The notes beneath the pieces are model-generated. The model did no database searches. It saw nothing but the letters and a program-made list of their open reading frames with translations, and was not told where the DNA came from. From the IMG/VR virus record IMGVR_UViG_3300038761_000007, positions 1-38,633 of that record: 38,633 nt of DNA; one strand, written 5' to 3'. Shown one piece after another: positions 7,052-33,267 of the stretch; position 1 is the stretch's first letter; every line of letters begins with the position of its first letter. This DNA comes from a virus. Both the position numbers and the translations under genes were made by a program.

Positions 7052-8433
7052 AGCCACAGCTCCAGGCCAATGCGGTTGCGGGTGTAACTGCGGTTAATAG
7101 CAATAACAAGGCCTTTTTTGCCGTTGGCGAAACCAAAGCGGGGGTTTATAAGCTCAACGGTTTGACCAATTTTCACCTGCGATGGCGCTAGAAAACATTC
7201 CACCGACCACACCTCGCGGCGCTGGCTTTTTACGGCGGCAACGCGGTCACATTCGGTTTGCGCATTGGTGGTGCCGGTGATGTAGCTGTCGACCACCTGG
7301 TCGCCTGCTAACGGGTAGTCTGTAACGGTGTTGGCTGTGCTCACTTGCTGCCAGGGCTCGGTGAGCTGTTCGGCCAGCGCGGGAGATGTGTCGAGCATGC
7401 CTGCTAAGCTGTTGCGCGCCACGGGGGCAAAGTTGCGGTTGTAGTTGAATTTTAGCGTTTTTACCGGCGGCTCCATCGTCTCAAGCTGCAATTGCCCTGC
7501 GGCTACGTCGTCGGCAGTGATGGTTAAGTCGGCAACCAGGGCGGGGGCGGTAATGGCGTAGGCCTCGACCTCACCAGCAGCATTAACCAACCAGAACGCG
7601 CCCAGCGAGCTGCACACGTCGTCGAGCACTTGCGCTGCTGTGGTTTCGTCGGCGTAATACAAGCCCAGGGTGTAGGTTGGCAGCGCGTTAAGGGTGGTTT
7701 GGTTGGCAGTAAGGCCAAAACGGGTGCACACCCAGTTAATAATTTCTTTTGCTGTGCCGTTGGCTTCCACCACGTCGGTGCCCAAATTGCCTTGGGGCCG
7801 GGCTGACAGTGTGTATTTGCCGTTGCTGTAGTCGGCGGTGTGGCTAACCACCGCGCCGTTATCGCGCACCACAGCGCTGGTTATTGAATTTTCGTTAATT
7901 TGGTACTCGTGAGTGGGGTCGTCAGTTAACGCTGGCAGCACGTTAAAGGGTTCACCAAGGGCTATGGGTACGGGCTGGCCACTGGCCAGCAGCGCGGACT
8001 GTAGGGGCTGGTCGAGCACTGCTTTACCATCACGGATGCCAAAACGCAAAATACCGGGTGAAATCTCGGTAATACCGTCATTTATAACGTTAGCCACTTG
8101 TCGAAAGTCGTCTAGCGACCAGTCAATAGCCCCCAGAAACATGCGCACCGCGTGGCCACGCCATTTAATAGCGGCCCAGGTGTCGAGGGTGCCGTCGTTA
8201 ATAAGTGTTATCTCGCCCACATCCATAGCGCCGTCGATGCGGCTAGATATGTCGATGGCTTCGCTAATCACGTCGTCGTAACTGCGGTTGGGGCTGGTGT
8301 CGCCCGGGCGGCTAATGTACGGCGCGTTGGCGATGTATTCGGTGCCCCCCGAGTGGTCCAACTCTATTAACAGCGTGCGCTGTTGGCCCATGTCGGCCAG
8401 CCATGCCGCGTACTGCGCATCGCTCATAGACAT
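7048..8433 (-). CDS. Tail-tip/baseplate hub-like protein
   Basis: 461 aa, first gene after the tape measure, to which it is joined by a TAATG overlap. The N-terminal about 100 residues form a beta-rich module and the mid-protein contains a segment (CTRFGLTANQTTLNALPTY) like the inserted helical domains of hub proteins. The C-terminus is again beta-rich. Position and size fit the tail-tip hub that closes the tail tube and contacts the tape measure. I see no lambda L/K/I/J-like set or NlpC/P60 peptidase nearby, so the tail tip may be of an unusual type. Confidence 0.7.
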   Translation of the reverse strand: MSMSDAQYAAWLADMGQQRTLLIELDHSGGTEYIANAPYISRPGDTSPNRSYDDVISEAIDISSRIDGAMDVGEITLINDGTLDTWAAIKWRGHAVRMFLGAIDWSLDDFRQVANVINDGITEISPGILRFGIRDGKAVLDQPLQSALLASGQPVPIALGEPFNVLPALTDDPTHEYQINENSITSAVVRDNGAVVSHTADYSNGKYTLSARPQGNLGTDVVEANGTAKEIINWVCTRFGLTANQTTLNALPTYTLGLYYADETTAAQVLDDVCSSLGAFWLVNAAGEVEAYAITAPALVADLTITADDVAAGQLQLETMEPPVKTLKFNYNRNFAPVARNSLAGMLDTSPALAEQLTEPWQQVSTANTVTDYPLAGDQVVDSYITGTTNAQTECDRVAAVKSQRREVWSVECFLAPSQVKIGQTVELINPRFGFANGKKGLVIAINRSYTRNRIGLELWL

Positions 8434-11400
8434 TAGCTGAGCACCGTGACTTTGTTGCGCGTCATTTGTCGCCCGGTGCGCTCGATGCTTTGGCGTTGGC
8501 TATTGCGTTGCTGCGCAGCACTGGCGGCATCGCTGGCGCGTTCGTTTCGCAGGGCGGCGACCTCGTTGCGCAGAGCTTTCATTTCTGCTAGCAGGGCGTC
8601 GTTGTTGTTGCTGTTTGTGCCAACGTTAATGCCGTATTTTCGCAGCGCGTCTGCCGACTCTTTGTCGATGATTATTTCGCCGTAATCGATAATCGCTTTT
8701 TGAGTGTGACTAACGAACGGTGTACCTGTATTGAATCGGTTAATTTCAGTCGCGCCATTTTCAAGCGCACTGGCAAAAAACAGCTCTTTGAGCGATTCGT
8801 AATCTTTGCCGCTGTCGAGCATATTTTGCCAAAAAGCGTAGCCGTCAGCATCGGGTGTTTTGTTCAAGCCCCGGCTGTAGAGCTCGTAAATGGGGTCGTT
8901 GCTGAGGTCGGCAGCTTGCACGCCGGTGGCACTGCTAAAGTCGGCAGAAAGCTCAGCGGGCAGCACAGCTAAAAGCTCGGCAACACTGTCGATGCCCGCT
9001 GTCATTCTTACGGCTTGCTGCAGCTGTGAAAGCGCGGTGTTGCCGAGGCTGAGCGTTGCACCGAGGGTTTTTGTTTGTATGCGCGCAATGTCGGCGCTTA
9101 CATCGGCCTCGGTTTTAAACTCTTTGCCCAGATCACCCAGCGAACCGGTGACGCTATTGAAAATGTCGGTGTACTGGCCCGAGCTGGCGTAATAGCTGGC
9201 GGCTTCTTTTAAATACGCCTGGCCGTCGGCACTTAGCGCACCGGCGGCGGCCAGGTCGCCCCCTTGCGCAGCGGCAAGGCTTGCGCTGTACTGGTTTTTG
9301 GCAAAATCTAACCGCGCTTTGTTAGACAGCGGCGAGAGCGTTGACAAGTTGAGCTGGTCGACGGTGTCGAGCAGCGCGTTAGCCACGCTTAGCATGGCGG
9401 CTTTTTCGTCGCGCAGGGCTTTTATGCGCGCATCGGCATTGCTTTGCAGTGCCGCACGCTCGTCGTTGTAGCTGCCAAGTATGCTGGTACTCATGTCGCT
9501 AATAGACTGGGTAGCAACGGCAACTTGTGACGATGCGCTGGATAAATAAGTGTCTAAACTGGGCGCGAGTGACACTAGCTGCGCAAATAAGGTTTGCGCG
9601 GCGCTGGTGGTAAGATCAAGACCGTCGACCAGTGCTCTAAAGCCCTCGTGGGTTTGCGGTACCGCCAGCCCTAGCTCGTTAAATTGCTGGGTTAGGGAGT
9701 CACCCAATTTTTCGAGCTTTTCGCCGTCGGTGTAAAACGCATCGTAATACGCATTAATGCCGGTGCTGAGCTGGTCCAGGCCGCCGAAGGCTTGCACTAA
9801 ACCGTCAGCGGCTGCCATGCCGGTCACGGAGAAGTCGATAAGCTCAAAACCCAGCGCGTCGAGGGCGCCGGTAACACCAACAAACTCAATCTGCACGCGG
9901 CTGATCGTGTCGGCTAAGGCTTCGCCCTCTTTCATTAAGGGCTCGAAGGGCGAGAGATCAACAACAAAGCCGGTGAGCTCTTCAACTTTCGATTGCCATG
10001 CGCCAGTAAAGTCGTCGAGTACCGATTCGACATCGCCCTGGTTAATGCCGTTGTATTCAGCGGAGCCGAAGAATGTTTTGCCCCAGTCTGTGCCAGCCCC
10101 AGCGGCTTTACCGTCGAGCGTGCGGCCAGTGAGGTTGACAGTGGTGCCCAGCTGCTCATAAAGCCCTGTTAACACAGTGTCTGTGTACGCAGCAGCTTCG
10201 GCTAATTGATCTGCCAAGGCAGTGCCTTCACTGCCAGCGCGTTTAGCGTAAGCGGTAAGCTCAAGACCGGATGCGCCGTAGGCTTTATGGCCCGGTGACA
10301 ATGAGCCGGGCTCGGTGAGAACGCCCAGCGAGACACGCTCTTTGCCGTCGCCGCCGAGAGCGGAGTCTGTAAGGCCCCCAATAAAACCGCCAACGGCAGA
10401 GCCTAGAGCCGTTCCGATAACCGGCACAATAGACCCTACATATGCACCTATACCCGCCCCTGCTGTTGCCCCGATATTGGAGTTGGCCTCTTTCCCGAAC
10501 AACCCTCCACCAATCTTATTTCCTGCATAACCGCCTGCAAAACCAGAACCTACTGTGTACAACCCCCCCAGCGCTAAGTTTCCGCCGCCTTGAGCAGCAA
10601 ACCCCGCGCTGCTTTCCAGCAACCCGGAGGCAGCATTACCAAACCCATTTTCGTAAAGAAGATTAGCAATGTAATCAACCCCACGCGACGCACTAAGATG
10701 TGCACCTGTAAGCCCTCCGTTTATAAGGGATTTCCCCGCGCTGAGTAAGTCAGCAACAGAAAACCCGCCCCCGCCCGAACTAGCACCGAATAAACCAGTG
10801 CCATCGCCCGCCGATGCAACACCACTGCCGCCCATGCCCAGCCCAATAATAATGGGTTTGGTAATGGCGAGGTGGGCCATTTCGGCTAGCAGGGTTTTAA
10901 AGCTGTCTAGTATGCTGTCGCCAAAGCTTTTGAAGCCATCGAAAGCGCCGGCCCATGCGTCAGCAAATGTCTCGTCGACTCGTTCTATCGCCCTGTCCCA
11001 CGCGGTGACGTAAACGCTGGTGGCTTTGGGGGTTTCGCGTTGCACGGTGGTGACTATTTGGCTTGTGCTGCTTTGCACCGTGGCAACCATTTTGCCGGTG
11101 GACACTGCCAGGGTATCGGGCAGGGTGTTAATGTTGCTGTTGATCAGTGCTGTTGAGACGTTAGCTTCTGCGGCTATTTTTTCAGCAGTTTTTTGTACGT
11201 CGTCTTCTGTTTCTCGTAACCATTTTTTAATCGATTGCGAGGGCAGCGCCTTTGTTGTTAAGTCTTTTAATTCTTGCGTTAGTTCTGTTGCTGTACTGCC
11301 AACAGCATCGGAAATATTTTGAAAAAACTGGCTTTCCGTGAAATTACCGCCGCCTGCGAACTCTGGCAGCTTGTTGAGCAACGAGGTAATCGCGCTGTCG

Positions 11401-12362
11401 ATGCCTGCCGTTGCAGCGAAAATGCCGCGATAAGTTTGAGCAACAACAACCGTCACACCCTTCCACACTATTTGTAGGCCGCGAGCGGCATCAGCAACAA
11501 AGCCAATGCCGGCAATCATGCCGTCGAACAAAGCGTCGGCAGTGTCTTTAGCTGAGCTCATCTCGCTGCCGACACCCAATAATTCGTTAGCGATACCGGT
11601 TAACGCAGGAGAAACTTTAACCGCAAGCTGTTTCCACAAGCCCTCGCTGGCCTGCCCTACCCTGCTCATGGCATCGTTGGCTTGCTCGATTTTTGCAGAG
11701 TCAACCCGGTTTATGGCCAAGCCCCATTGCTCGGTAAAGGCGGCGGCTTCTAGCGCGGCAGCGCTGCCGCCTTTGAGGGTGTTAAGTAACGCCACACCCT
11801 CGGAGTCGAATAACTTAAACGCCAGGCGCACACGGTCGGACTGGCTGCCTACGTCACCCATGGCGTCGCCAATGGCGGCAAACTGCTGGTCGGGCGAGAG
11901 CTTCGCCAGCTCGGCGGCATTAATGTTTAATTCTTTAAGCGCGTCTTTTGCCTCGCCTGTGCCCTGGGCGGCTTCACCCACACGGCGCACCATGCGCTGT
12001 AGACCCATGTCGAGGGTGTTAGCTGCTACACCGCTAAGCTCGGCCTGTATGCGCAGGGCGGTGAGGCTTTCAGTGGCAATGCCGAGCTTGTCACTGACTT
12101 TTGCAGTGCTGTCAATGGCGCTAAGCTGCTGCTTAACCATTACCCCAACACCTGCCGCAGCCGCTAGCGCAGCGGCTGAGCCGTAAGCGGCGACCTTTTT
12201 GGAGAGGTCGGAAAAGCTGGCGCTGTTGTCTTTATTGTGCTGTACGGCTTTTTTCTGGGTGTCGTTAAGGCCCTTTAGCTGGTCGTCAGTGAGCTTTAAA
12301 GCCGAGACACCACCTCTTGCGTCACCGGTAATTATTAAGCCGGTTTTTATGGTTTTTGCCAT
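8433..12362 (-). CDS. Tail tape measure protein with a DUF4214-like C-terminal segment
   Basis: 1309 aa, the largest gene, directly after the frameshifted chaperone pair. The N-terminal half is Ala/Leu/Lys-rich helix, the middle (about 560-700) has Gly-rich hydrophobic stretches that could insert in membrane, and long coiled-coil-like helices follow. Near residue 1165 a D-P-I-Y-E-L-Y-S-R-G-L-N-K-x-P-D-x-x-G-x-x-F-W motif matches DUF4214, usually found in surface-layer and adhesin proteins. The last 60 residues are a charged helix. At about 1.5 angstroms per residue the tail would be near 200 nm, a long non-contractile tail. Confidence 0.93.
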   Translation of the reverse strand: MAKTIKTGLIITGDARGGVSALKLTDDQLKGLNDTQKKAVQHNKDNSASFSDLSKKVAAYGSAAALAAAAGVGVMVKQQLSAIDSTAKVSDKLGIATESLTALRIQAELSGVAANTLDMGLQRMVRRVGEAAQGTGEAKDALKELNINAAELAKLSPDQQFAAIGDAMGDVGSQSDRVRLAFKLFDSEGVALLNTLKGGSAAALEAAAFTEQWGLAINRVDSAKIEQANDAMSRVGQASEGLWKQLAVKVSPALTGIANELLGVGSEMSSAKDTADALFDGMIAGIGFVADAARGLQIVWKGVTVVVAQTYRGIFAATAGIDSAITSLLNKLPEFAGGGNFTESQFFQNISDAVGSTATELTQELKDLTTKALPSQSIKKWLRETEDDVQKTAEKIAAEANVSTALINSNINTLPDTLAVSTGKMVATVQSSTSQIVTTVQRETPKATSVYVTAWDRAIERVDETFADAWAGAFDGFKSFGDSILDSFKTLLAEMAHLAITKPIIIGLGMGGSGVASAGDGTGLFGASSGGGGFSVADLLSAGKSLINGGLTGAHLSASRGVDYIANLLYENGFGNAASGLLESSAGFAAQGGGNLALGGLYTVGSGFAGGYAGNKIGGGLFGKEANSNIGATAGAGIGAYVGSIVPVIGTALGSAVGGFIGGLTDSALGGDGKERVSLGVLTEPGSLSPGHKAYGASGLELTAYAKRAGSEGTALADQLAEAAAYTDTVLTGLYEQLGTTVNLTGRTLDGKAAGAGTDWGKTFFGSAEYNGINQGDVESVLDDFTGAWQSKVEELTGFVVDLSPFEPLMKEGEALADTISRVQIEFVGVTGALDALGFELIDFSVTGMAAADGLVQAFGGLDQLSTGINAYYDAFYTDGEKLEKLGDSLTQQFNELGLAVPQTHEGFRALVDGLDLTTSAAQTLFAQLVSLAPSLDTYLSSASSQVAVATQSISDMSTSILGSYNDERAALQSNADARIKALRDEKAAMLSVANALLDTVDQLNLSTLSPLSNKARLDFAKNQYSASLAAAQGGDLAAAGALSADGQAYLKEAASYYASSGQYTDIFNSVTGSLGDLGKEFKTEADVSADIARIQTKTLGATLSLGNTALSQLQQAVRMTAGIDSVAELLAVLPAELSADFSSATGVQAADLSNDPIYELYSRGLNKTPDADGYAFWQNMLDSGKDYESLKELFFASALENGATEINRFNTGTPFVSHTQKAIIDYGEIIIDKESADALRKYGINVGTNSNNNDALLAEMKALRNEVAALRNERASDAASAAQQRNSQRQSIERTGRQMTRNKVTVLS

Positions 12363-17303: not shown

Positions 17304-18524
17304 TTACACTGCAAATTTCATAAATTTAACGGCTTCGTAATGATTGATGCCGCCACCGACGCGCTTGGTTGTGTAAAATTTAACGAAGCCTTTTTCTGTG
17401 AGGTCGTCTCGCAGTACTCGCACACCTACACGGTCAACAATGCGATAGGCACGCTTAAAATCGCCGAAGGCAATCGACAGGCTGTTAGCAGCCACATCTG
17501 GCATAAAGTCGTCAATTTCGATAGGTTTACCGAGCAAGGTTTCTGGTGCGCCTGCTTCGATACCAGGGCGCCATAAATAAGCGCCGTTGGAATCTTTGAG
17601 CTTGCGCACTTCTGCCAGTGTTAGGTCGTTCATCAGCCAGGAGGCGTTGGCGCGATAACCACGCTTAAGGGCGTGGGTAAGATCTATTAATGCATCGCCA
17701 CCATTTGGGGCTACAGCAAACGCACCGGCAGCACCTGAGTTAACGCTACCAATTTTGCCCCAGCTCCAGCTGTCGTTGTCCACAACAGGGTAGGTGAGCA
17801 GCCCGCGTGGTTGTTTGACCCCGTTGCCGGTGAGAAATTTGTCACCTTCTTGTTCGGCAAATTCAACACCCACTTCGTCGGCTAGCCAGTCTGCTATGTT
17901 GGCAATAGAGTCATCTAGCAACTCTTGCGTAGTCTTAGGCTCGGAGTACAGCTCTTTGACATTAAAGGCTAACTCTGCGAGCGCTGGAGTGTCGGTTTCT
18001 GACCTGGACTGGGTTTCACCAACCCAGCCAGATGTTGCACCACCGAGGCAAACGAAGCGCTTGTATTCGCTGGTTGTAATAGGCATTACGGTGCAAAGAC
18101 TGCGCATGGCACCAAAATCACCCATGATGCGGTCAATCGATTTTTCGATTTCAGCATGCACGGTATAACCACCGCTGGGGTCTGTGCCAACCGACAAGGC
18201 TTTTTGCTCTAGCTCACGCAAACCATCGATGGTGCCCTTGCGAAAATATTGATTAAAGCCTTTAACATGAGCCGCGACATTAGCTGCTTTTTCGCCGTCT
18301 TCTTGTCCACCACCGGGGATGCGGTTGCTTTTTGTTTCAAGGGCTTCGAGCTTGGTTTTAACGTCGGTTAATTCAGACATTTTTTCGTTAATAGCGACCA
18401 GCTTACCTTCGAGGTCGCCGACGGCACCACCCTCTTCGACCGCCTTCAATCTGGTATCGTTGGTTTTTTTAAATTCGTGAAAGACGGAGGCGAGTTCGTC
18501 AATGGTTTCTTTTAGTTCGTTCAT
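17304..18524 (-). CDS. HK97-family major capsid protein
   Basis: 406 aa. Residues 1 to about 85 are a charged coiled-coil delta/scaffold domain, followed by a flexible G-G-G-Q-E-D-G segment where the prohead protease would cut. The mature part has the HK97 hallmarks: S-V-G-T-D-P-S-G-G-Y-x-V near 110, a helical E-loop region and the K-R-A-Y-R-I-V-D-R-V-G-V-R-V-L-R-D C-terminal stretch. It assembles into the icosahedral head. ATGA couples it to the protease gene. Confidence 0.95.
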   Translation of the reverse strand: MNELKETIDELASVFHEFKKTNDTRLKAVEEGGAVGDLEGKLVAINEKMSELTDVKTKLEALETKSNRIPGGGQEDGEKAANVAAHVKGFNQYFRKGTIDGLRELEQKALSVGTDPSGGYTVHAEIEKSIDRIMGDFGAMRSLCTVMPITTSEYKRFVCLGGATSGWVGETQSRSETDTPALAELAFNVKELYSEPKTTQELLDDSIANIADWLADEVGVEFAEQEGDKFLTGNGVKQPRGLLTYPVVDNDSWSWGKIGSVNSGAAGAFAVAPNGGDALIDLTHALKRGYRANASWLMNDLTLAEVRKLKDSNGAYLWRPGIEAGAPETLLGKPIEIDDFMPDVAANSLSIAFGDFKRAYRIVDRVGVRVLRDDLTEKGFVKFYTTKRVGGGINHYEAVKFMKFAV

Positions 18525-19192
18525 GTTTGTGGTCTCATTGATTGGGTTAATTCATTAATGGATTTAATTAACTCCGCGTCGCCGCCTTCGTCGCGAGGGC
18601 CGATGCCGCTGTAGCCGTCGGCAATAAAGGCCTTGGCTTGCCGGGCGCTAAAACCTACGTCGCGTAGGCAGTGCTCGACTTGTCTGATATTTGGGGTGTC
18701 GCCGTGGGTAAGCATTGATTTAACTTGCGCCACTCTCGCTTCGTCGTTCGCAGGGAAAGTAACCAGGGAAACTTCCCAGAGGTCTATTTTTGACAGAACA
18801 AAAACGTCTTTTTCTTTGTCGTAATGCCAGCCGTCGCCGGGCAGGGAGTAGCCGATTGACATGCCCGACAGGCTGCCCGCTTTTAAGTGAGCGTGGGCAC
18901 GCTTGGCGAGCGGGTCGTCGTCAATAAGTAAACGGCCCTCAACGTAAAGGCCTTCGTCGTCTTCTTCCATTTTGGTGTAAACGCCAATAGGCTCTTTGGT
19001 GTCGTGCTGCCATAACAATGACGGCATACGGCCTTTGCTGGACCAGTCAGATAGCGACTGGCTAAATGCGCCTTTAACAACAACATCGCCATAGCTGTCG
19101 GTGGTGCCGAAAACAGAGCCGTAACCAGAGAACTCACCGCTATTACTGACTTCTTTGATCCTTAGTGGCGCGTGTAGTTTTTGCTTAAGCAT
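18521..19192 (-). CDS. HK97-type prohead protease
   Basis: 223 aa from the ATG at 19192 with AGGTGA ahead; an in-frame GTG at 19216 is a weaker start. This is a U35-type serine protease. His63 (LLWQHDTKEPIG) and Ser112 (GSLSGMSIGY) are the expected catalytic residues, and the F-S-G-Y-G-S-V-F-G-T-T-D-S-Y-G-D-V block is diagnostic. It removes the capsid delta domain during head maturation. The start overlaps the portal gene by 8 nt. Confidence 0.94.
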   Translation of the reverse strand: MLKQKLHAPLRIKEVSNSGEFSGYGSVFGTTDSYGDVVVKGAFSQSLSDWSSKGRMPSLLWQHDTKEPIGVYTKMEEDDEGLYVEGRLLIDDDPLAKRAHAHLKAGSLSGMSIGYSLPGDGWHYDKEKDVFVLSKIDLWEVSLVTFPANDEARVAQVKSMLTHGDTPNIRQVEHCLRDVGFSARQAKAFIADGYSGIGPRDEGGDAELIKSINELTQSMRPQT

Positions 19193-20408
19193 TGTCGTCA
19201 CCTGTGTTTTTGTCACCGATCTGTTGCATTTCGGTGTTGTCTTTTGGATCTATCATGTTGGCGGGCACCCAATATGTGTCGCCGTTTTCAATTGGGTTTT
19301 CGTCTTCAAAGTCGCGAATATCATTAGGTGACAGCGAGCCCATTTGAAAACGCTTCCACATGTAGTCTGCGCGGGATTTCATGTCGCCACGCAATAGGGC
19401 GTTGACGTTGAACTTGGCAAAAAACTTTGCCCGCTCTTGTGCCGTCAATAAACTGACGGCTATGCGCTGCTCGAAGCGCGTTACCCAGGGCGTGAGCGTG
19501 TGAACAACGAAGGCAATGTCTTGATGTTCGATATTAGAAAAAGTGGCCTTTTCCATGTCGTTGATCATGTGGGCGGGTACCCGAAAAATGCCGGCTATTT
19601 CGCTGCGCTGATATTTGCGTGTTTCGAGAAATTGGGCGTCTTCTGGTGATATTGATATAGCTGTCCATTTCAGGCCGCCACCGAGAATAGCGGTGCGCAG
19701 CTCGTCTTCACCGCTGTTAGCCTCGCGCCACGATTTTGACATGAGCTGCATTTGCTCTTGATTCAGCTTCGTGTCTGTACTCAATAAACCACTGGGGCGC
19801 GTGCCGTTTTTAAAAAGACGCGAACCAAAGCGCTCGGCAGCCATGCCTAAGCCAATACTGTTTCGCGCCTGGGCAATAGGACTAAGACCTGTGAGTCCGT
19901 CCATTGACATGAGGCGCACATGGAATATTTGGTTTTCGGCCAATGTTCGCTGGCTGCCATCGGGGAAGGTAACTTTGTAATCAACTGACCAGTCACTATT
20001 TATGACTGGGGTGACGCCATCGGGATTTAATGGAAGTAGTTCGCGTACCTGCCCATTTATGCGGTTGACCCAGGAGTAGTGGTTGCCCCGAAGGCATAGG
20101 TGGGCGACCATTGTCTCGCGCCACTCCTGGCTGGTCATGTAGCTGTTTGGGGCAAGGTTTATTAAGTTAAACAGGCTATGGCTGCGGGCTTTTTCGCGCA
20201 CTTTGCCTTTCTGCTCAAATAGATTTAAAGGCAGCATGCCGACGGACTCTGCCAGCACTTTTATGCAGCTATACACCGGGGCAAAGCGGGCGGCTTCTTT
20301 TGGTGTAACTGAGACTCCAGCGCTGGATTGATAACCAACACCGAGCGCTTCTGCCAGCTCTGCCGAGGTGCTAATAGTTGTGCTTTTTTGCAAGCGGTCA
20401 AAAATCAT
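19185..20408 (-). CDS. HK97-type portal protein
   Basis: 407 aa, usual length for the family. It contains A-R-F-A-P-V-Y-S-C-I-K-V-L-A-E-S-V, L-L-P-L-N-P-D-G-V, I-F-H-V-R and a C-terminal D-I-R-D-F-E-D-E-N-P motif typical of these portals. Twelve copies form the DNA entry/exit ring. The ATG overlaps the TGA of the membrane microprotein (TGATG). The C-terminal about 20 residues are hydrophilic and variable. Confidence 0.94.
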   Translation of the reverse strand: MIFDRLQKSTTISTSAELAEALGVGYQSSAGVSVTPKEAARFAPVYSCIKVLAESVGMLPLNLFEQKGKVREKARSHSLFNLINLAPNSYMTSQEWRETMVAHLCLRGNHYSWVNRINGQVRELLPLNPDGVTPVINSDWSVDYKVTFPDGSQRTLAENQIFHVRLMSMDGLTGLSPIAQARNSIGLGMAAERFGSRLFKNGTRPSGLLSTDTKLNQEQMQLMSKSWREANSGEDELRTAILGGGLKWTAISISPEDAQFLETRKYQRSEIAGIFRVPAHMINDMEKATFSNIEHQDIAFVVHTLTPWVTRFEQRIAVSLLTAQERAKFFAKFNVNALLRGDMKSRADYMWKRFQMGSLSPNDIRDFEDENPIENGDTYWVPANMIDPKDNTEMQQIGDKNTGDDNA

Positions 20409-20560
20409 CAGGCGATGGGGCCGCGACTAGCTATAAATGCAACGCCAATCAGCAATAAGCCGCCAACAATAAAACCAGCTGGCTCGTAAATAAGCCACGA
20501 GCCATAGGCAATAAAGCCGATGCCGAAAATACCAACGGCGTCGAAAATTGATTGTTTCAT
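20408..20560 (-). CDS. 50-aa two-segment membrane microprotein between terminase and portal
   Basis: It starts at the ATG at 20560, sharing ATGA with the terminase stop, and ends TGATG at the portal start, so it is translationally coupled on both sides. The sequence MKQSIFDAVGIFGIGFIAYG is followed by a second hydrophobic stretch around 25-45, giving two likely membrane helices. I do not recognise the family. The context suggests a packaging- or assembly-linked membrane protein, though no function is known to me. Confidence 0.75.
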   Translation of the reverse strand: MKQSIFDAVGIFGIGFIAYGSWLIYEPAGFIVGGLLLIGVAFIASRGPIA

Positions 20561-22236
20561 AGAATAAATATCTCAGGTGATTCTGTGTCATCTGACGCCA
20601 TAGCCAGCGCAATGCCCATGATAAGGGCGACGGCGGGGTCGATTTTTTCTGACACTTTGCCTTTGTCGGGCTTTATGTTGCCGGCGGGGTCGGTTTGCAC
20701 AACAACGTTGCTAACGGCCCAGGTAAGGAGGGGGTCGTTGTGGCGCAGTTGTTGGTTGAGCACGAGGCGCAGTAGTTCTTTGCTGGGGGCACTCATGCTG
20801 CCGTAACCCTGGCCAAATTCAATAAAGTCGATGCCTTCGTCGATTAAATCGCTAACGAGCTGACTGCTGTTCCAGCGGTCGAAGGCGATGGATTGCAGGT
20901 CAAACCGCTCAGCGGCGGCCATAATGTCGGTTTTGATAAAGTTGTAGTCGACGGTTTGGCCGGGTAGCACAATGAGGTGGCCGCTGTCGCGGAATGTTTC
21001 GAGCGTTTTGTCGCCCTTGTTTAGCCTGCGCTCTAGTGCGGCTTGCGGTAAGTAGGATCGCGAGAGCACTGTGCGCTGGCCGCTTTCACCGGGAAAGACG
21101 AGGCCGAAGGTGGTCATGTCCTCTACGGCTGAGAGGTCGAGGCCACCGTAACATTCTTGGCCGTCGAGCTCGGTAGCGTTGTCCCAGCTGTTAAGGCTGG
21201 AGTCTTTGCATTGGTGCCAGTGTTGCATGGGCATCCAGGCGGTTTCACCGTAGACCCATAGGTTAAGGCGTTTGGTGAGGAATTCTGTTTTGGCACTGGG
21301 TAGGTGCTTAGCTTCTTCGCATTGCTCTTGTAGGTCGGTGAGCGATACGGAGACGCCTAAGTTTGGGTTGGCTTTGGGCCACTCGGCGGGGTCGTCCCAT
21401 TTTTCGGGGTCGTCGAGGGTGTAAATTGTGGTAAAGAAGGCGTCGTCTTTGACGGCACCCTCGAGTACTTGTATTGCATAACGTCGGCGCTGGTAGCAGT
21501 AGCTGTTGTGGTCAAAGCCTGCTGTGGTTATAGCGCGCATTATGGGCTGTTTGCGGGCGCCCATGGCGCTGCGCATGACGTCCCAGAGCCCTGAGTTTGG
21601 GTGGGCGTGGAGTTCGTCAACAAGCCCTGCGTGAACGTTGAAGCCGTCCATGCGTTTGCTGTCTTTACTGAGCGGCAGGTATTTGCTGCGCTGGTATTTA
21701 AGCTTGTGTTCTTCAATTGTGCAGAGCTTGGTTAACGCAGGGCTTTGCTCAAGCATGGCTTTGCTGGATTCAAAAATAAGCCGGGCTTGTTCTTTTTTTG
21801 TAGCTGCGCTGTAAATTTGCGCGCCGGGTTCGTTGTCGCCGATGAGGTAGAAGTTGCCAGCGGCGGCGAGGCGTGTTGATTTGCCATTTTTGCGGGCGAC
21901 TTCTTCGTAAGACTGGCGAAAGCGGCGGGTGCCGTCTTCACGTATCCAGCCGAATAGGTTGGCGTCGGCAAAGCATTGCCAGGGTTCAAAGTCTATTTTC
22001 TTACCGGCCCATTCGCCTTCGTAGTGGCGACAGTGCCGGCCAACAAAGCGAAAGTATCGCGCCGCGTGATATTCACTGAACTGAAGGCCCCGCGAGGGAC
22101 CGTTGACCATGTCGTCAAACCAGCGATCAACAGCAAGCTGTATGTATTTACAGCTAGGTATTACGCCGCTTTTTACGTCGTCGGCGTATTGATAGGCGCG
22201 GTCTAGCCAGGCCCTGCCGACATCAGGGACGCTCAT
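20557..22236 (-). CDS. terL: Terminase large subunit
   Basis: 559 aa. The ATPase domain has a Walker A-like R-K-N-G-K-S-T at 115-121 and a Walker B V-D-E-L at 206-209, with Y-E-E-V just before the P-loop. The nuclease domain shows Y-G-G-L-D-L-S near 350 as the first metal-binding Asp. It is the packaging motor that cuts and translocates DNA. It begins in TAATG overlap with TerS and ends in ATGA overlap with the microprotein. HNH and a P27-type TerS nearby fit a cos-type packager. Confidence 0.95.
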   Translation of the reverse strand: MSVPDVGRAWLDRAYQYADDVKSGVIPSCKYIQLAVDRWFDDMVNGPSRGLQFSEYHAARYFRFVGRHCRHYEGEWAGKKIDFEPWQCFADANLFGWIREDGTRRFRQSYEEVARKNGKSTRLAAAGNFYLIGDNEPGAQIYSAATKKEQARLIFESSKAMLEQSPALTKLCTIEEHKLKYQRSKYLPLSKDSKRMDGFNVHAGLVDELHAHPNSGLWDVMRSAMGARKQPIMRAITTAGFDHNSYCYQRRRYAIQVLEGAVKDDAFFTTIYTLDDPEKWDDPAEWPKANPNLGVSVSLTDLQEQCEEAKHLPSAKTEFLTKRLNLWVYGETAWMPMQHWHQCKDSSLNSWDNATELDGQECYGGLDLSAVEDMTTFGLVFPGESGQRTVLSRSYLPQAALERRLNKGDKTLETFRDSGHLIVLPGQTVDYNFIKTDIMAAAERFDLQSIAFDRWNSSQLVSDLIDEGIDFIEFGQGYGSMSAPSKELLRLVLNQQLRHNDPLLTWAVSNVVVQTDPAGNIKPDKGKVSEKIDPAVALIMGIALAMASDDTESPEIFIL

Positions 22237-22691
22237 TAATCGAGATCGAGGCCGCCCTGGTTGGGGTTGTCGATAGTGATAGCTTTTCGCGCGCGGGGGC
22301 TGAGGAAAAACTTGTCGGCAATTTTCTGGTATCGATTAGCGTGGCGCTCGCGAGCAACTGCCCAAGGCGATAATTGCATGTAGTTGTTTGGCGTAGATTG
22401 GTATTCCCCTTTGTCCTCAACTTCACGCTGAGCCTCAACATACAATGCCCAGGTTTCACACATGATGCGAAACTGGCCGAGGTCAACTTCAGCTAGAAGG
22501 TTTAAGCCGACTAACCGCTCACCGATGTAGTACCAGTGCTTGCGAGCCTCGTCAGAAATACCACCAGGGACCGGTGGTATTTTTGGCTTCAAACCCTGGA
22601 ATAAATCGGCAGCAGGCTCGTTAGCTGTCGGCTTTTTATTGCTTGTCTCCGCCAACCCCAGCGGGATCACTGCGGCCATCGGTTTATTCAT
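22236..22691 (-). CDS. terS: Terminase small subunit, P27 family
   Basis: 151 aa. The P27-type pattern is visible: P-P-V-P-G-G-I-S-D-E-A-R-K-H-W near 40, then L-L-A-E-V-D-L-G-Q-F-R-I-M-C-E-T-W, a Y-x-Q-L-S-P-W segment and a C-terminal basic helix. It recognises phage DNA and loads TerL. Immediately upstream lies a 106-nt non-coding gap with a run of ten C. Confidence 0.9.
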   Translation of the reverse strand: MNKPMAAVIPLGLAETSNKKPTANEPAADLFQGLKPKIPPVPGGISDEARKHWYYIGERLVGLNLLAEVDLGQFRIMCETWALYVEAQREVEDKGEYQSTPNNYMQLSPWAVARERHANRYQKIADKFFLSPRARKAITIDNPNQGGLDLD

Positions 22692-23755: not shown

Positions 23756-24002
23756 CTGACACTATCCTAGACATCCTTGCAATATGCTCAGCATGCTCGC
23801 GCCTGTCTCGCCGGCGCTGTAACACCAGCCCATACAGGCCAACCGCAATGCCCACCAGAATACCCACGCTCGACAACAGTAGATGATTATCTGCCAGCCA
23901 ACCTACCGCACCGCTACTCACCGCCAAACCACCACCTGCCGCCGTTAATTTATGCCCGGCTAATGCAAGGCCAACCTCGCCTACGGGATCACCCTGACTC
24001 AT
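23748..24002 (-). CDS. LydA-like holin
   Basis: 84 aa with one or two hydrophobic segments (about 20-37 and 41-61), then a strongly charged tail, R-R-R-D-R-R-E-H-A-E-H. This matches LydA/phage holin 3-3 type proteins. It would form membrane lesions that release the endolysin. ATGA overlap with the endolysin stop. Confidence 0.85.
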   Translation of the reverse strand: MSQGDPVGEVGLALAGHKLTAAGGGLAVSSGAVGWLADNHLLLSSVGILVGIAVGLYGLVLQRRRDRREHAEHIARMSRIVSGE

Positions 24003-24541
24003 TTGTCGCCAGTGTCCACAGCGCCAAACCGTAAATTATCAGCAATACGGCGCATCCAGCCCTTGCTCGCATCAGCCCAATTACGCAAATACGTCATAAA
24101 CTCAATGCGCTCAGCTAACAGCAACATAATCACATCGCCCTCACTAAGCGCCTCAAGCGCAGCTAATGTTACCGGGCCGACAACACCGTCATCAGCAACA
24201 CCAACGGCTCGCTGCAAACGACGAACCGCACGACCAGGCCCCGCGTTAACCGCAAAATCCAGCAACTGATACGCCACGCCATCGCGATAGCGCCCCAGCT
24301 TTAGTGGGCGCACAAAATCGCGCTGGTAAATCGCCACCGTGTCAGGCAACGTCAGTCCAGCAATATTTAAATCGGGATACGTCTTCGCACTAATACCAAA
24401 TTTAGTGCCCTTCAGCTCGCCCTGGCCAACAATGCCGCCCGTCCAGTTGCCGGGGTCCAAAGGATTGTCAGAGAACTCACCCTCGTGCCCAACAATGCGC
24501 ACCAACCAGCTTTCAACTAAAGCATCGCTGTGACCTCTCAT
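23999..24541 (-). CDS. Endolysin, GH108 family with peptidoglycan-binding C-terminus
   Basis: 180 aa from the ATG at 24541 (CGGAG, 5 nt ahead). An in-frame ATG 15 bases upstream has no ribosome site and touches the terminator. The GH108 signature H-E-G-E-F-S-D-N-P-L-D-P-G-N-W-T-G-G gives the catalytic Glu20; K-F-G-I-S follows. The C-terminal half (D-D-G-V-V-G-P-V-T-L) resembles the PG_binding_3 domain. It cleaves peptidoglycan glycan strands; with no signal peptide, it needs the holin. Confidence 0.93.
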   Translation of the reverse strand: MRGHSDALVESWLVRIVGHEGEFSDNPLDPGNWTGGIVGQGELKGTKFGISAKTYPDLNIAGLTLPDTVAIYQRDFVRPLKLGRYRDGVAYQLLDFAVNAGPGRAVRRLQRAVGVADDGVVGPVTLAALEALSEGDVIMLLLAERIEFMTYLRNWADASKGWMRRIADNLRFGAVDTGDK

Positions 24542-24556
24542 ATAAACTCCGGGCAT

Positions 24557-27016: not shown

Positions 27017-27203
27017 CATTTCCTTTGCCCTTTTCTTGCCTTCTCTTCTTTTCCTTGCGCTCAAATTCAAACTCAACATACAAGCGCACCCAATCCCTAA
27101 AATGGCCCGGAACCACCTCTTCCAAATACGCCCGCCGCTCGGCTCGGCTCGGCAGGGCGCAGCACTTGGCTGCATAATGCCGAGGGCGCAGCTCGTCGCG
27201 CAC
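26985..27203 (-). CDS. 72-aa hypothetical protein after ssb
   Basis: GTG start at 27203 inside the ssb stop (TAGTG), a coupled start. It contains A-L-P-S-R-A-E-R-R-A-Y-L-E-E-V-P-like and F-R-D-W-V-R-L-Y-V motifs that recur in small proteins next to ssb or replication genes in Pseudomonas and related phages. Highly charged C-terminus. Function unknown. Confidence 0.72.
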   Translation of the reverse strand: MRDELRPRHYAAKCCALPSRAERRAYLEEVVPGHFRDWVRLYVEFEFERKEKKRRQEKGKGNDEQCFNNRDY

Positions 27204-27688
27204 TAAAACGGAATATCATCATCAAAATTGTCAAACCCGCCACCCTGAGCAGGTGCCGCTTGCGGCGCGGCTGGTTGCCCTGGTTGTGCCCCCGCACCGG
27301 GCGCCTGCTGTTGAGCATACGCAGCGGTATTACCCGCACTCTCAGCCCCTCGGCTATCCAGCATCTGCATTTCACCCGCCACAATCTCCGTGGTGTAGCG
27401 GTCGGCGCCGGTGGTTTTGTCTTGCCATTTACGCGTGCGCAGCGAACCCTCAATGTAAACCTTGCTACCCTTGCGCAAATACTCCCCGGCAACCTCCGCC
27501 AGGCGGTTAAAGAAAATTACCCGGTGCCACTCCGTACGTTCCTGAGGTTGCCCGGTTTGCTTATCCTTCCAGGTCTCGCTGGTGGCAATATTCACATTGG
27601 TCACCGCACCGCCCGAGGGCATGTAGCGGGTGTCTGGGTCTTGCCCCAGGTTGCCGATTAAAATAACTTTGTTGATGCCTCTAGCCAT
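27203..27688 (-). CDS. ssb: Single-stranded DNA-binding protein
   Basis: 161 aa. The OB-fold domain occupies 1-110 ([13 protein letters not shown], then W-H-R-V-I-F-F-N and K-G-S-K-V-Y-I-E-G). A Gln/Pro/Ala/Gly linker follows, ending in the conserved acidic tip D-D-D-I-P-F that recruits partner proteins. It supports phage replication. The leader upstream holds a large inverted repeat. Confidence 0.96.
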
Positions 27689-27742: not shown

Positions 27743-27890
27743 GTTATATTTTAAGTAATGAGCCGCGCTCTTCTGGTGGCTACGCGGTAGGTCTATCACT
27801 CTTTCGCCAAACCTTTTATGTATCGACCGGGACGGTTTGATTAGCAATCCCACAAGGCATACCTCATTTACCCATTACTTAAAATATAAC
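27743..27890 (-). other. 18-bp inverted repeat enclosing a branched structure ahead of ssb
   Basis: GTTATATTTTAAGTAATG (27743-27760) is the exact reverse complement of 27873-27890. Between them CCGCG (27763-27767) pairs with CGCGG (27783-27787), and AAACC (27809-27813) with GGTTT (27834-27838), giving a three-way-junction-like RNA. It covers the end of the upstream gene and most of the ssb leader. A structured regulatory RNA or a small MITE-like element are both possible. Confidence 0.7.
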
Positions 27891-28167
27891 CAGTAGCTCC
27901 AGCGGACCCGCTACGCTCACCGCTGAGCATGGGCTTTATCTGAAGAGTCTCGACCAATACTTCGCGTGTTGGTGCATCGTGCCCTGCATCACCCAGCACA
28001 CTCCCGCTGAAACCGCTCTCTCTCACGCTGCCTAAGCGACCTGCTGTCAACCTCAGCTGTTGCACGGGCACCAGTGGTATCGGCCCGTGTTTAGCAACCC
28101 ATGCGGCAACATCCCGCTCGTACTGCGCCAGCTTCGCTTTTTTCTCTACACTTAATGTTTTTCGCAT
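27868..28167 (-). CDS. Hypothetical protein with a basic N-terminal helix
   Basis: 99 aa, ATG preceded by AGAGGA. The N-terminal segment M-R-K-T-L-S-V-E-K-K-A-K-L-A-Q-Y-E-R-D-V is helical; the rest is Gly/Ser-rich with no recognised motif. Its last codons run into the 18-bp inverted repeat, so the C-terminus may have been altered by insertion of that element. It lies between the origin-like region and ssb. Confidence 0.65.
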   Translation of the reverse strand: MRKTLSVEKKAKLAQYERDVAAWVAKHGPIPLVPVQQLRLTAGRLGSVRESGFSGSVLGDAGHDAPTREVLVETLQIKPMLSGERSGSAGATGYILSNG

Positions 28168-28465
28168 TTCTTGGTCCTCTTTCTGGGTTTTTAAGCCTTT
28201 TTTACCCTGCCCCGGTTGCCCCGTTTTTAAACCCTAACCGGGGCAACGTAAGTTATTGATTTAATTCTATTTGCCCCGCATGCCCCGCATGCCACGCCTG
28301 TTTACGCGCACACGGGAGAGTTTTTTTATTTTAAAAACATACACACGTGCGCGCGGGAAACCCCGTGGCAAGCGTGGCATGCGGGGCATTCCCTTGGTTT
28401 TCAAGGGCTTAGCTTGCCCCGGCTTTGCAAAAAAAACGGGGCATCCGGGGCAAATCGGGGCATTT
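28168..28465. other. Iteron-rich candidate replication origin
   Basis: A 298-nt non-coding stretch. The 7-mer TGCCCCG occurs exactly at 28208, 28217, 28272, 28281 and 28415, and its complement CGGGGCA at 28239, 28382, 28437, 28446 and 28456; TGCCACG/CGTGGCA variants are at 28290, 28364 and 28373. Inverted repeats include a 17-bp pair (28281-28297 / 28372-28388), an internal 7-bp pair (28305-28311 / 28347-28353) and 9-bp pairs (28215-28223 / 28239-28247; 28414-28422 / 28445-28453). An AT-rich tract (28321-28340) lies centrally. It is next to the P4-alpha-like primase-helicase gene. Confidence 0.75.
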
Positions 28466-30970
28466 TTACGCAACATTGCTAAAACCTCCGCCAGAAACGG
28501 GCGCGGCAAGCAATTTATCCCACTGCTCAACACAGTCACCCAGCCACTCGCCTTGCGTTTTCCCCGGTGGCATAGCAACATCGCGGGGCAGAAAGAAGCG
28601 CGCCTTGGCTGTTGAGTGCCCACTCTCGTAATGCACACCCGCCCGACTACGCAACCAGTCGAGGGTTTTAATTAGCCCGGTAAACTTATTGCTACTAATC
28701 GCCCGCTCGCCCTGGCCCTTGCACCAGCGCTCGTAAAATTTGTACAGGTCTTTATTGCGCACTGGCACATACGGCGCGTCGGTTTCACCCGCCTGCCATT
28801 GCAGAGCGAACAACTCCCACCCCGCCCGGCCAAAGTTAATCAATCGCTCTTTAGCAGCACTGCGGGGCGGTTTGGTGTGGGTGTTAAAATCTTTTAGATC
28901 CCACGCCAGCAAATAGGCATAAAACGCTTCAATGCCACCGTTGGCTATCTCATGGGCCACCTGCTGCTGCAGCTCGTCGCTGAGCTTCCAGCGGGGCCAC
29001 ACCACGAAAAACCGCCGGTCCTCGTCCTCGATGTACATGGGTTGCACCTCGTTCGACAAAAACACCGAATTCATGCAGTTCATCTCTTCCCAGCCGGTAA
29101 CGAACTTCTGTTCAACCCGGAAGGTCTCGCCGGTCACCATCTGCTTCACAAGGCCCATATAGTCGTACTTTTGGCCACGAGAGAAAATCTCCTCAAACAC
29201 CGCGTACAGCTTTTGGCTACGCCACACCGTGTACTTGTCTTCAAGCTCGTGCTGGCTCACCGTGGCACTGTATTCGCCATAAATCTGGCGCATTACACCG
29301 TCGAAAAACAGGCTTTTACCCGCACCCTGCTTATTACTGTGCATTAATACAGCCGTGGCCATTTTCGCGCCCACCTGCTGCAAAGGCAGAGCCAGCCAAC
29401 TCATTAGCCAGCGCCAGTCGTCCTGGTCTTCATTACACAAACTAAACACCAGTTTTTGAATGCCCACACACGCACTGTCATTGCGCACAGGCTGCAAGGG
29501 CAGGCCCCGAAACATATTAATGTAAGCGCCGTCGCGGCCCTTCTGCCGAGGGTCGAACAACAAATCAGTGTGATGCAACTCGTGGCGTTTAGGGTGCTTC
29601 AGCCAGTCTTCGTAATCGTCAGCCAACTGCAAGCGCAGCGCGTTAACATTCACCCGCTCGCGGCGCAACCGGTCCCACACATCAGTGGTGCCCGCAAGGT
29701 AAACAAAGCGCTTTAAGGCATCTGTCAGCCCCCCGCGCCCCTCAGCCTTGGCGGCCGCAATATCATCCAACAGGTCGAGCTGCTGCACCTCTTTACGCGC
29801 AGGGTCTTTTACCCACGCGTCCCACAAATTAGCCAGCAATGTCTTGGCAGCTTGCTTGTTCATCAAACGCTTGTATTTGTAATCCCACACCTTGGCATCA
29901 GGCATAGCCAGCGCAAATCGCTCAAGTGCTTTGTCGAGCGTCAGCGCGCCACCAGCACTCACCGGGGGCGCGGGGGTTTCACACGGGCGCTGCGTGGCAG
30001 CCAACAACTGCTTTTTCACCTCAGCCAAGCCCGCCTGCACGTGTAAATCATTCCAATCCGTGCCACGCTCGGCATCGGGTGCAAACTCAGGAACCACCAC
30101 ACGGCCACCGCAATGCTGGGCCGCTTTAGTGGCAGCAGCAACACCCGGGTTACCCTGTGTTTTATAGTCATCGTCGGCGCAAATCATGAAAATAGCGTCT
30201 GGGTGTTGCGCATGCAGCGCCTTAGCCACGGCCAGCACGTTGCCTGCGTCAAACGCCACGGCGACTGTCCAGCCCATGGCTTGGCGAATGCTGGCGCCGG
30301 TGACGTAACCCTCTACAATAGCAATGGGGGCGCGGGGGGTAATATCCCCCAACAAATGCCAACTGCCCCGCTTTTGCGTACCGGTCAAAAACTTCTTATC
30401 GCCGTTGCCTTGAATAAACTGCAGGCCCACCAGGGCGCGTTCGGCATTGCGCACCGGCACCACCACACTGCCCCGGCTAAAACGCAGGCCCCAGGCTTTT
30501 ACTTGCTTGCAAGCTAAATAATCACTCGCCCCAGCATCGGGCAAGGCATCCCAAATCTTCGCGCTGCGTTCAATACAATCCTCCACTTTCGAGGCATGGG
30601 CCGCTTCAGCCTTCGCCTGCTGCGCGGCCACTTTTTCGCGCCGCTGCGCCTGGGCTTTCATTAATTCAATTTTTTCTTCAGCGCTGGGCTCAGCCTTTGC
30701 CGGCTGCCAGCCACCATCTTTAGCCTGGGCAATTAACGTACCAATGGTAATGCCGCCACTGGCCTTAACCGACCGCCAGGTGGCCCGCGCATCGTCAGGC
30801 TTGTAGCTGGCCCCGCCCTGGCTCCAATTATCGAAGGCATCAAAACCCTCGTCGCCAAACTCGGCTTTTAGCGCCATAGCAATTTGCGCCCACTCGTCGC
30901 GGGGCAAATCGGGGTTTATATGGGCCAGCGCATCGTCGGCATCGGCCAGGGTGAATTGATACTCTTTCAC
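28466..30970 (-). CDS. Primase-helicase (PriCT_2, Toprim, DUF5906), P4-alpha-like
   Basis: 834 aa. PriCT_2-type N-terminus (about 5-80), a charged linker, and a Toprim domain with Glu220 (AIVEGYVTGAS) and the D-D-D at 266-268. A large helical segment precedes the SF3/DUF5906 helicase with Walker A H-S-N-K-Q-G-A-G-K-S at 544-553. It should prime and unwind at the origin. It begins with ATGA overlap with the DUF6378-like gene. The iteron cluster sits directly after its stop. Confidence 0.92.
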   Translation of the reverse strand: MKEYQFTLADADDALAHINPDLPRDEWAQIAMALKAEFGDEGFDAFDNWSQGGASYKPDDARATWRSVKASGGITIGTLIAQAKDGGWQPAKAEPSAEEKIELMKAQAQRREKVAAQQAKAEAAHASKVEDCIERSAKIWDALPDAGASDYLACKQVKAWGLRFSRGSVVVPVRNAERALVGLQFIQGNGDKKFLTGTQKRGSWHLLGDITPRAPIAIVEGYVTGASIRQAMGWTVAVAFDAGNVLAVAKALHAQHPDAIFMICADDDYKTQGNPGVAAATKAAQHCGGRVVVPEFAPDAERGTDWNDLHVQAGLAEVKKQLLAATQRPCETPAPPVSAGGALTLDKALERFALAMPDAKVWDYKYKRLMNKQAAKTLLANLWDAWVKDPARKEVQQLDLLDDIAAAKAEGRGGLTDALKRFVYLAGTTDVWDRLRRERVNVNALRLQLADDYEDWLKHPKRHELHHTDLLFDPRQKGRDGAYINMFRGLPLQPVRNDSACVGIQKLVFSLCNEDQDDWRWLMSWLALPLQQVGAKMATAVLMHSNKQGAGKSLFFDGVMRQIYGEYSATVSQHELEDKYTVWRSQKLYAVFEEIFSRGQKYDYMGLVKQMVTGETFRVEQKFVTGWEEMNCMNSVFLSNEVQPMYIEDEDRRFFVVWPRWKLSDELQQQVAHEIANGGIEAFYAYLLAWDLKDFNTHTKPPRSAAKERLINFGRAGWELFALQWQAGETDAPYVPVRNKDLYKFYERWCKGQGERAISSNKFTGLIKTLDWLRSRAGVHYESGHSTAKARFFLPRDVAMPPGKTQGEWLGDCVEQWDKLLAAPVSGGGFSNVA

Positions 30971-32538: not shown

Positions 32539-33267
32539 ATGAAAAGAGAAACCCCAGATATCCTTGATAAAGCTCGATTAATGGCAGCAGAAGCCGCTTT
32601 TGTCGATAACAAATTTCAGCAGAAAAAAACCGCAGAACCAAACCTAACCCAAGAACAGCTTGCTATTGAAATGAGCATAACCCAGGGCGTCGTCGGGCAG
32701 TGGCTAAAAGGAATTACAAAAATACCCGATAAACGAATGGTTTGGCTAGCCAACAGGCTTGGTTTCGACCCTACCGAGGTTCGCCCTTCTATTGCTGACT
32801 ATGCCTTCACTCGAGATAGCGAGCAAACTACGCAGCGCATACGCGAACCTAGCAGGACATATAACACCAGAATCGCCATTGTCGGCAACGCCCAGGCAGG
32901 CCCCGATGGCTATTGGGATGATATGGGTCACCTTGAACACGGCGACGGATTTATCGTAGCGTCATCAAAAGACCCCGACGCCTACGCACTGCGTGTGCGC
33001 GGCGACAGTATGGCCCCCGCTATAAAAAACGGCCAGATTGTTGTCATAGAACCCAACAGCCCCGTACACCAGGGCGAAAACGTGCTCGTCTGCACCACCG
33101 ACGGGCTCTGCATGATCAAAGAATACCGCCTCTACAATGAGACCGACGAGGAATACACCTTCGGCAGCATTAACGACCAACACCCCGCCATGACCGTCCA
33201 AAAAACCAACATCACCCGCATACAACCCATTACCATGGTCGTGGCTGCCAGCCTGCGCCAAGCGTGA
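32539..33267 (+). CDS. CI-like repressor with S24 (LexA-type) peptidase domain
   Basis: 242 aa. HTH at about 35-60 (LTQEQLAIEMSITQGVVGQW). A cleavage site Ala120-Gly121 precedes the peptidase domain with Ser157 (RGDSMAPAI) and Lys194 (MIKEY). RecA-stimulated self-cleavage would induce the phage. It diverges from cro. No strong -35 is visible for its promoter, so activation at the operators is likely. Confidence 0.95.
   Translation: MKRETPDILDKARLMAAEAAFVDNKFQQKKTAEPNLTQEQLAIEMSITQGVVGQWLKGITKIPDKRMVWLANRLGFDPTEVRPSIADYAFTRDSEQTTQRIREPSRTYNTRIAIVGNAQAGPDGYWDDMGHLEHGDGFIVASSKDPDAYALRVRGDSMAPAIKNGQIVVIEPNSPVHQGENVLVCTTDGLCMIKEYRLYNETDEEYTFGSINDQHPAMTVQKTNITRIQPITMVVAASLRQA

Follow-up and report, generated by a model that had tools for sequence, protein, structure and literature searches.

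The window, the whole stretch of 38,633 nucleotides analysed here, harbors an array of short repeats between two genes of the minus strand, that of an 834-aa primase-helicase and a 99-aa ORF. The array and its surroundings comprise the following features, with the basis of each in brackets.

28466–30970, minus strand: 834-aa primase-helicase, proposed origin-binding initiator (Pfam/PHROGs, AlphaFold2, Foldseek)
28208–28462, no strand: proposed origin of replication, a 13-site iteron array with an exact dyad about 28330 (sequence)
28437–28462, minus strand: outer iteron trio adjoining the primase stop, CGGGGCA at 28437, 28446 and 28456 (sequence)
28415–28421, plus strand: opposed iteron, primase-proximal half (sequence)
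28364–28388, minus strand: inner iteron trio at 9-bp steps, variants at 28364 and 28373, exact copy at 28382 (sequence)
28297–28363, no strand: 67-nt core between the inner trios, candidate unwinding region, AT-rich centre about 28318–28340 (sequence)
28337–28355, minus strand: GC-rich alternating purine-pyrimidine (Z-DNA-like) tract CGCGCGCACGTGTGTATGT (sequence)
28304–28317, minus strand: TCCCGTGTGCGCGT, weak counterpart in the window phage of core element TCTCACGCGCGAGG, which is conserved (EM motif)
28272–28296, plus strand: inner iteron trio, distal half, exact copies at 28272 and 28281, variant at 28290 (sequence)
28239–28245, minus strand: opposed iteron, distal half (sequence)
28208–28223, plus strand: outer iteron pair, distal half, at 28208 and 28217 (sequence)
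27868–28167, minus strand: 99-aa ORF beyond the array, no family match in Pfam or PHROGs, 3' end in an 18-nt inverted repeat (ORF)
27203–27688, minus strand: single-strand binding protein, SSB (Pfam/PHROGs)
20557–22236, minus strand: terminase large subunit (PHROGs)
19185–20408: portal (PHROGs)
17304–18524: capsid (PHROGs)
8433–12362: tape measure (PHROGs)
23999–24556: endolysin (PHROGs)
32539–33267: repressor (PHROGs)
1–957: integrase (PHROGs)

A first-pass annotation had reported ten exact copies of TGCCCCG/CGGGGCA and three one-base variants within 255 nt, and all thirteen are where it placed them: TGCCCCG starts on the plus strand at 28208, 28217, 28272, 28281 and 28415, CGGGGCA, its minus-sense form, at 28239, 28382, 28437, 28446 and 28456, and the variants are TGCCACG at 28290 and CGTGGCA at 28364 and 28373. 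The inverted repeats that it described, one of 17 bp and the others shorter, are likewise present. A chance origin of the array is excluded, because in 5,000 dinucleotide shuffles of 28168–28465 no 7-mer exceeded five copies, against the ten observed, and elsewhere in the window the count per 300 nt stays at four or fewer. The count over window and host genome that had been proposed as a check upheld the enrichment, with 22 exact copies in the whole window against 9.2 expected, nearly half of them within the 255 nt. Across the 3.53-Mb host genome, the array accounts for three of the four exact occurrences of the tandem form TGCCCCGNNTGCCCCG; the fourth falls on Pro/Ala codons of a coding region that reads as accB. 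Use of the iteron in multiple copies across the host genome was thus rejected, as its tandem form is found outside the array only this once.

The array also forms an exact dyad that the first-pass annotation had not seen. Six pairs of iterons are mirrored to the base about position 28330, inside the AT-rich centre, and the starts of each pair (28446/28208, 28437/28217, 28415/28239, 28382/28272, 28373/28281 and 28364/28290) add up to 56654. In the reading direction of the primase, the outer trio, whose members lie at half-site positions 73, 82 and 92 counted from the innermost iteron, is followed by the opposed site, the inner trio and the 67-nt core, past which come the other inner trio, again at 9-bp steps, the second opposed site and the outer pair. 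When the gaps were jittered by up to 2 bp, a mean of 2.4 mirror pairs remained versus the six observed (p=0.0017).

The primase-helicase combines three domains recognised by Pfam/PHROGs, namely PriCT_2 (residues 12–83), Toprim_3 with the motif EGYVTG (216–314) and an SF3/DUF5906 helicase (543–653); the DUF5906 match is above cut-off, which places the protein in the SF3 helicase fold. In its AlphaFold2 model (pLDDT 91.8, pTM 0.80), the modelled secondary structure shows a predicted winged helix at the C-terminus, at residues about 738–795. The closest structure in Foldseek is NrS-1 polymerase (3e-19), and SaPI5 PriRep (6e-10) and PriRep1 with dsDNA are also matched. The earlier description of the protein as P4-alpha type therefore holds in part: Toprim_3 and DUF5906, a Toprim primase fused to an SF3 helicase, are common to it and P4 alpha, but its N terminus is PriCT_2 instead of the P4 zinc ribbon, the D5_N and Pox_D5 models that P4 alpha also has give no match at E 0.001, and the closest solved folds are those of NrS-1 polymerase and SaPI5 PriRep. 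NrS-1 polymerase, a phage primase-helicase that forms a hexameric SF3 ring (PMC7102993), differs in turn by having an AEP PrimPol domain (PMC8718748) in place of Toprim.

Relatives of this locus were collected by two scans with a helicase alignment as query, which gave 160 loci; with phage records and genomes added, 175 were usable, the fetched loci being mostly about 9 kb long and the sample dominated by Pseudomonas. The position directly 3' of the putative initiator gene, as in origins of PICI/SaPI type, is shared by the window array and by 169 of the 175 relatives, in which the densest 7-mer cluster of the locus directly follows the helicase stop. The median is 8 copies of the 7-mer there and 4 at the best other place in the locus, and seven copies or more were found 3' of the helicase in 119 loci and nowhere else in the fetched loci. 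Some phages encode primase and helicase in separate ORFs, and there it is the helicase ORF that the array follows; at the corresponding place in four phages with a primase related through its PriCT_2/Toprim part alone, there is no array.

What changes between relatives is the repeat itself. They fall into 28 iteron classes, and once proteins more than 93% identical are removed, the remaining 84 loci carry 38 distinct 7-mers. CCCAACA is the iteron in most Pseudomonas prophages, an iteron of the CCCTGCACA type is found in Moraxella and Marinobacter, and further words include GGCCGGA, ACCGGCA, TCAGACA, AAGTTGA, CCTAGGC and CCGTATA, among others. Since the iterons change, a DNA similarity search of the window array against phage records gave no match. 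The layout stays alike across classes, with half-site positions at 0, 9, 18, about 51–62, about 72–74 and about 82–85, and the 9-bp step separates 67 of 127 neighbouring same-strand iteron pairs. Mirror exactness beyond the ±2-bp jitter (p<0.05) is seen in 16 of 28 class representatives; the other 12 are not significantly mirror-exact, partly through flipped outer right-hand sites. A constant layout with changing words fits an array for protein–DNA recognition, as shared sequence descent alone would not.

Far-side outer sites that are flipped with respect to the mirror template, with their spacing kept, can be seen in several classes (L039 6483–6770, L044, L013 and L015, and also the CCCAACA class).

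The core between the inner trios is also kept in kind across the iteron classes. The alternating purine-pyrimidine tract has a mean longest run of 17.3 nt in 27 cores versus 4.5 in shuffles, and the element resembling TCTCACGCGCGAGG reaches an EM log-likelihood of 172 versus at most 49 in shuffled cores. Both are present in cores with unrelated iterons and follow one order, in which the alternating tract lies beside one trio and is followed by an AT-rich stretch and then by the TCTCACGCGCGAGG-like element, which starts about 20–30 nt ahead of the other inner trio. The association of motif and helicase also appears when the DNA alone is searched. A pattern built solely from inner repeats of the CCCAACA type and the first part of the alternating tract found 19 matches in 2.9 million viral contigs, and at all 19 sites a helicase-family gene ends about 100–110 nt before (213 in one). 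None of these 19 CCCAACA-type matches is a satellite using the phage origin without the helicase.

The same search with the window's own 17-mer returned mostly chance matches and a single array, in L240. This one (about 11700–11890 of the reverse complement) is an inverted CGGGGCA/TGCCCCG array with the iteron word of the window, and lies at the 3' end of a 729-aa helicase ORF that is 23% identical over the helicase part.

The place of the array in the gene order bears on two other explanations. It sits between the early replication genes and a later operon, and the next rightward gene in one relative is annotated as an antitermination protein, so that it could be read as a control region, that is, an operator, late promoter or antitermination site bound by a phage regulator and not by the helicase. 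However, the array keeps its place by the helicase whichever genes lie beyond it, and these differ among relatives (the 99-aa ORF and SSB, hypothetical proteins or an antiterminator); its 13 mirror-placed sites far exceed the usual operator number, and the repeat type is tracked by the C-terminal domain of the helicase, as described below, which leaves this explanation highly unlikely. Phage packaging sites can contain short repeats, and the array could on that ground be a packaging (pac/cos) or recombination site, but the terminase genes of the window (20557–22691) are 5.5 kb off, those of relatives are several genes off, and it is the helicase, not the terminase, that the array follows. Such a role is extremely improbable.

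Variation in the iteron goes together with variation at the C-terminus of the helicase. Iteron similarity correlates with C-terminal identity when the helicase core is controlled (partial Mantel r 0.41, p 0.001), and not with the helicase core when the C-terminus is controlled (r 0.04, p 0.2). An equally variable N-terminal stretch, 350–440, also correlates with iteron type (r 0.23 versus 0.42 for the C-terminus), so part of the C-terminal signal is general relatedness. The link is clearer in pairs such as L055/L063 and L063/L067, where detectable DNA similarity ends about 300–340 nt before the helicase stop, is lacking through the array and returns 280–300 nt past the stop. In these comparisons the C-terminal domain and the array behave as one cassette, diverging together between homologous flanks. 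Covariation and cassette behaviour support the proposal that the C-terminal winged-helix domain sets the iteron specificity. A column-level analysis gave a weak signal, with 11 of the 40 top columns in residues 727–834, a region that holds 21% of the columns, so that the winged helix did not stand out strongly, and an attempt to pin specificity to single residues was not convincing.

It could also be argued that something other than the helicase opens the origin, either DnaA of the host or a further phage protein, and that the helicase is loaded secondarily, given that the self-loading of the helicase is something we infer and that Cch2, weakly active in vitro, may depend on further factors (PMC7581432). 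The joint change of C-terminal domain and array as one cassette argues against it, as does the structural match of the 834-aa model to SaPI5 PriRep, and this alternative seems highly unlikely.

The C-terminal domain of the SaPI Rep helicase recognises iterons directly 3' of its gene, and that of SCCmec Cch2 binds repeats 3' of its own (PMC7581432), while a PICI pri-rep-ori segment drives plasmid replication (PMC6092414). As in the window, PICI origins (SaPIs and E. coli EcCICFT073) consist of two iteron sets round a centre, 3' of pri-rep and at 9-bp steps, and their initiator is an SF3/DUF5906 helicase. The E. coli CFT073 PICI (L206 8997–9949) shares with the window the order of initiator, iteron array, small ORF and SSB as well as exact mirror pairs (5 pairs, p 0.005), although no BLASTP similarity is detectable between the two initiators, and the one PICI origin examined shows neither a long alternating tract rich in GC nor a TCTCACGCGCGAGG element, unlike the window family. 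P4 crr is also directly 3' of the alpha gene with iterons at 9-bp steps, but is made of two 120-bp direct repeats without an exact dyad, and P4 also has a distant ori. The putative origin of SCCmec Cch2, a helicase comparable to the proposed window initiator in the 3' repeats that its C-terminal domain binds, has three iterons only, a mirror array being undescribed, and belongs to a staphylococcal cassette, not a phage.

The reading of the array as an iteron origin, made in the first-pass annotation, is the best supported one, because the array lies 3' of an SF3 primase-helicase of the self-loading type, its layout is kept in the great majority of relatives (169/175), its iteron type follows the C-terminal domain and it parallels PICI origins that have been tested. 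The array is thus very probably the origin of a tailed temperate phage or prophage, with the neighbouring 834-aa primase-helicase as its own initiator acting through the C-terminal domain. Position, dyad, conserved layout, changing iterons, C-terminal link and fold are shown by the computation; in the model of origin activity that we infer from relatives, binding, ring assembly, melting and priming would succeed one another. The C-terminal winged-helix domain would recognise the TGCCCCG iterons, and the SF3 helicase may assemble into a pair of rings, one on each mirror-image half, with the inner trios at 9-bp steps and the outer sites at about 51, 73 and 82 bp as their footing. By analogy with relatives, the AT-rich core between the rings would then be opened, helped by the alternating GC tract, after which the two rings would move apart and the N-terminal Toprim/PriCT_2 part would prime synthesis.

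By gene content, the carrier of the array is a complete tailed temperate prophage and not a satellite, as seen from its integrase, repressor, terminase, portal, capsid, tape measure, tail and endolysin genes, the tail genes also being assigned by PHROGs. It therefore differs from PICIs, which are helper-dependent satellites without full virion genes. A 2018 paper held that the origin type of PICIs and P4 satellites is common to no other replicon. The relatives suggest that it is widespread in tailed temperate phages and, set against Fillol-Salom et al., would be the rule in a large group of temperate phages from Gram-negative bacteria, a point relevant to the provenance of satellite replicons. 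PICIs and P4 already provide examples of this kind of origin. The TGCCCCG iteron, for which the first-pass annotation knew of no described origin, was not found in the open literature searched (subscription papers lay outside its scope), nor were an earlier description of such phage origins, their carriage by complete phages, the constant core element or the many iteron classes.

The helicase family offers dozens of matched pairs of initiator domain and iteron on a constant geometric frame, so that an initiator–iteron code and the double-ring loading model are directly testable, and swappable repeat words open a way to study how starter proteins locate start sites. It is conceivable, as a tentative idea, that there is one geometric origin template in which the recognition word is swapped, the C-terminal domain and the array being exchanged as a cassette that avoids cross-firing by prophages and satellites. 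If so, there would be at least 28 natural classes of origin specificity, in effect phage origin incompatibility groups.

Other repeats were observed in the collection. L208 (about 8400–8775), L209 (about 9450–9850) and L210 (about 8780–9175), phages with PriCT_2/Toprim-only primases, carry, about 2 kb further along, 4–6 copies of GTGACAA/GTGACCA/TGACCAA that lie in the gap ahead of a later gene or close to it, this gene being annotated in two of them as late transcriptional activator; these may be activator sites or a different origin. In Pseudomonas phage PPpW-3 (L211, about 8025–8425), 17 copies of CGCAGCC are packed into 350 nt, inside a hypothetical-protein gene or close by. Finally, a perfect 18-nt inverted repeat, GTTATATTTTAAGTAATG / CATTACTTAAAATATAAC, with its arms 112 nt apart, occupies 27743–27890 of the window as a single copy in the genome; it overlaps the 3' end of the 99-aa ORF and resembles a small remnant of a mobile element or a hairpin.
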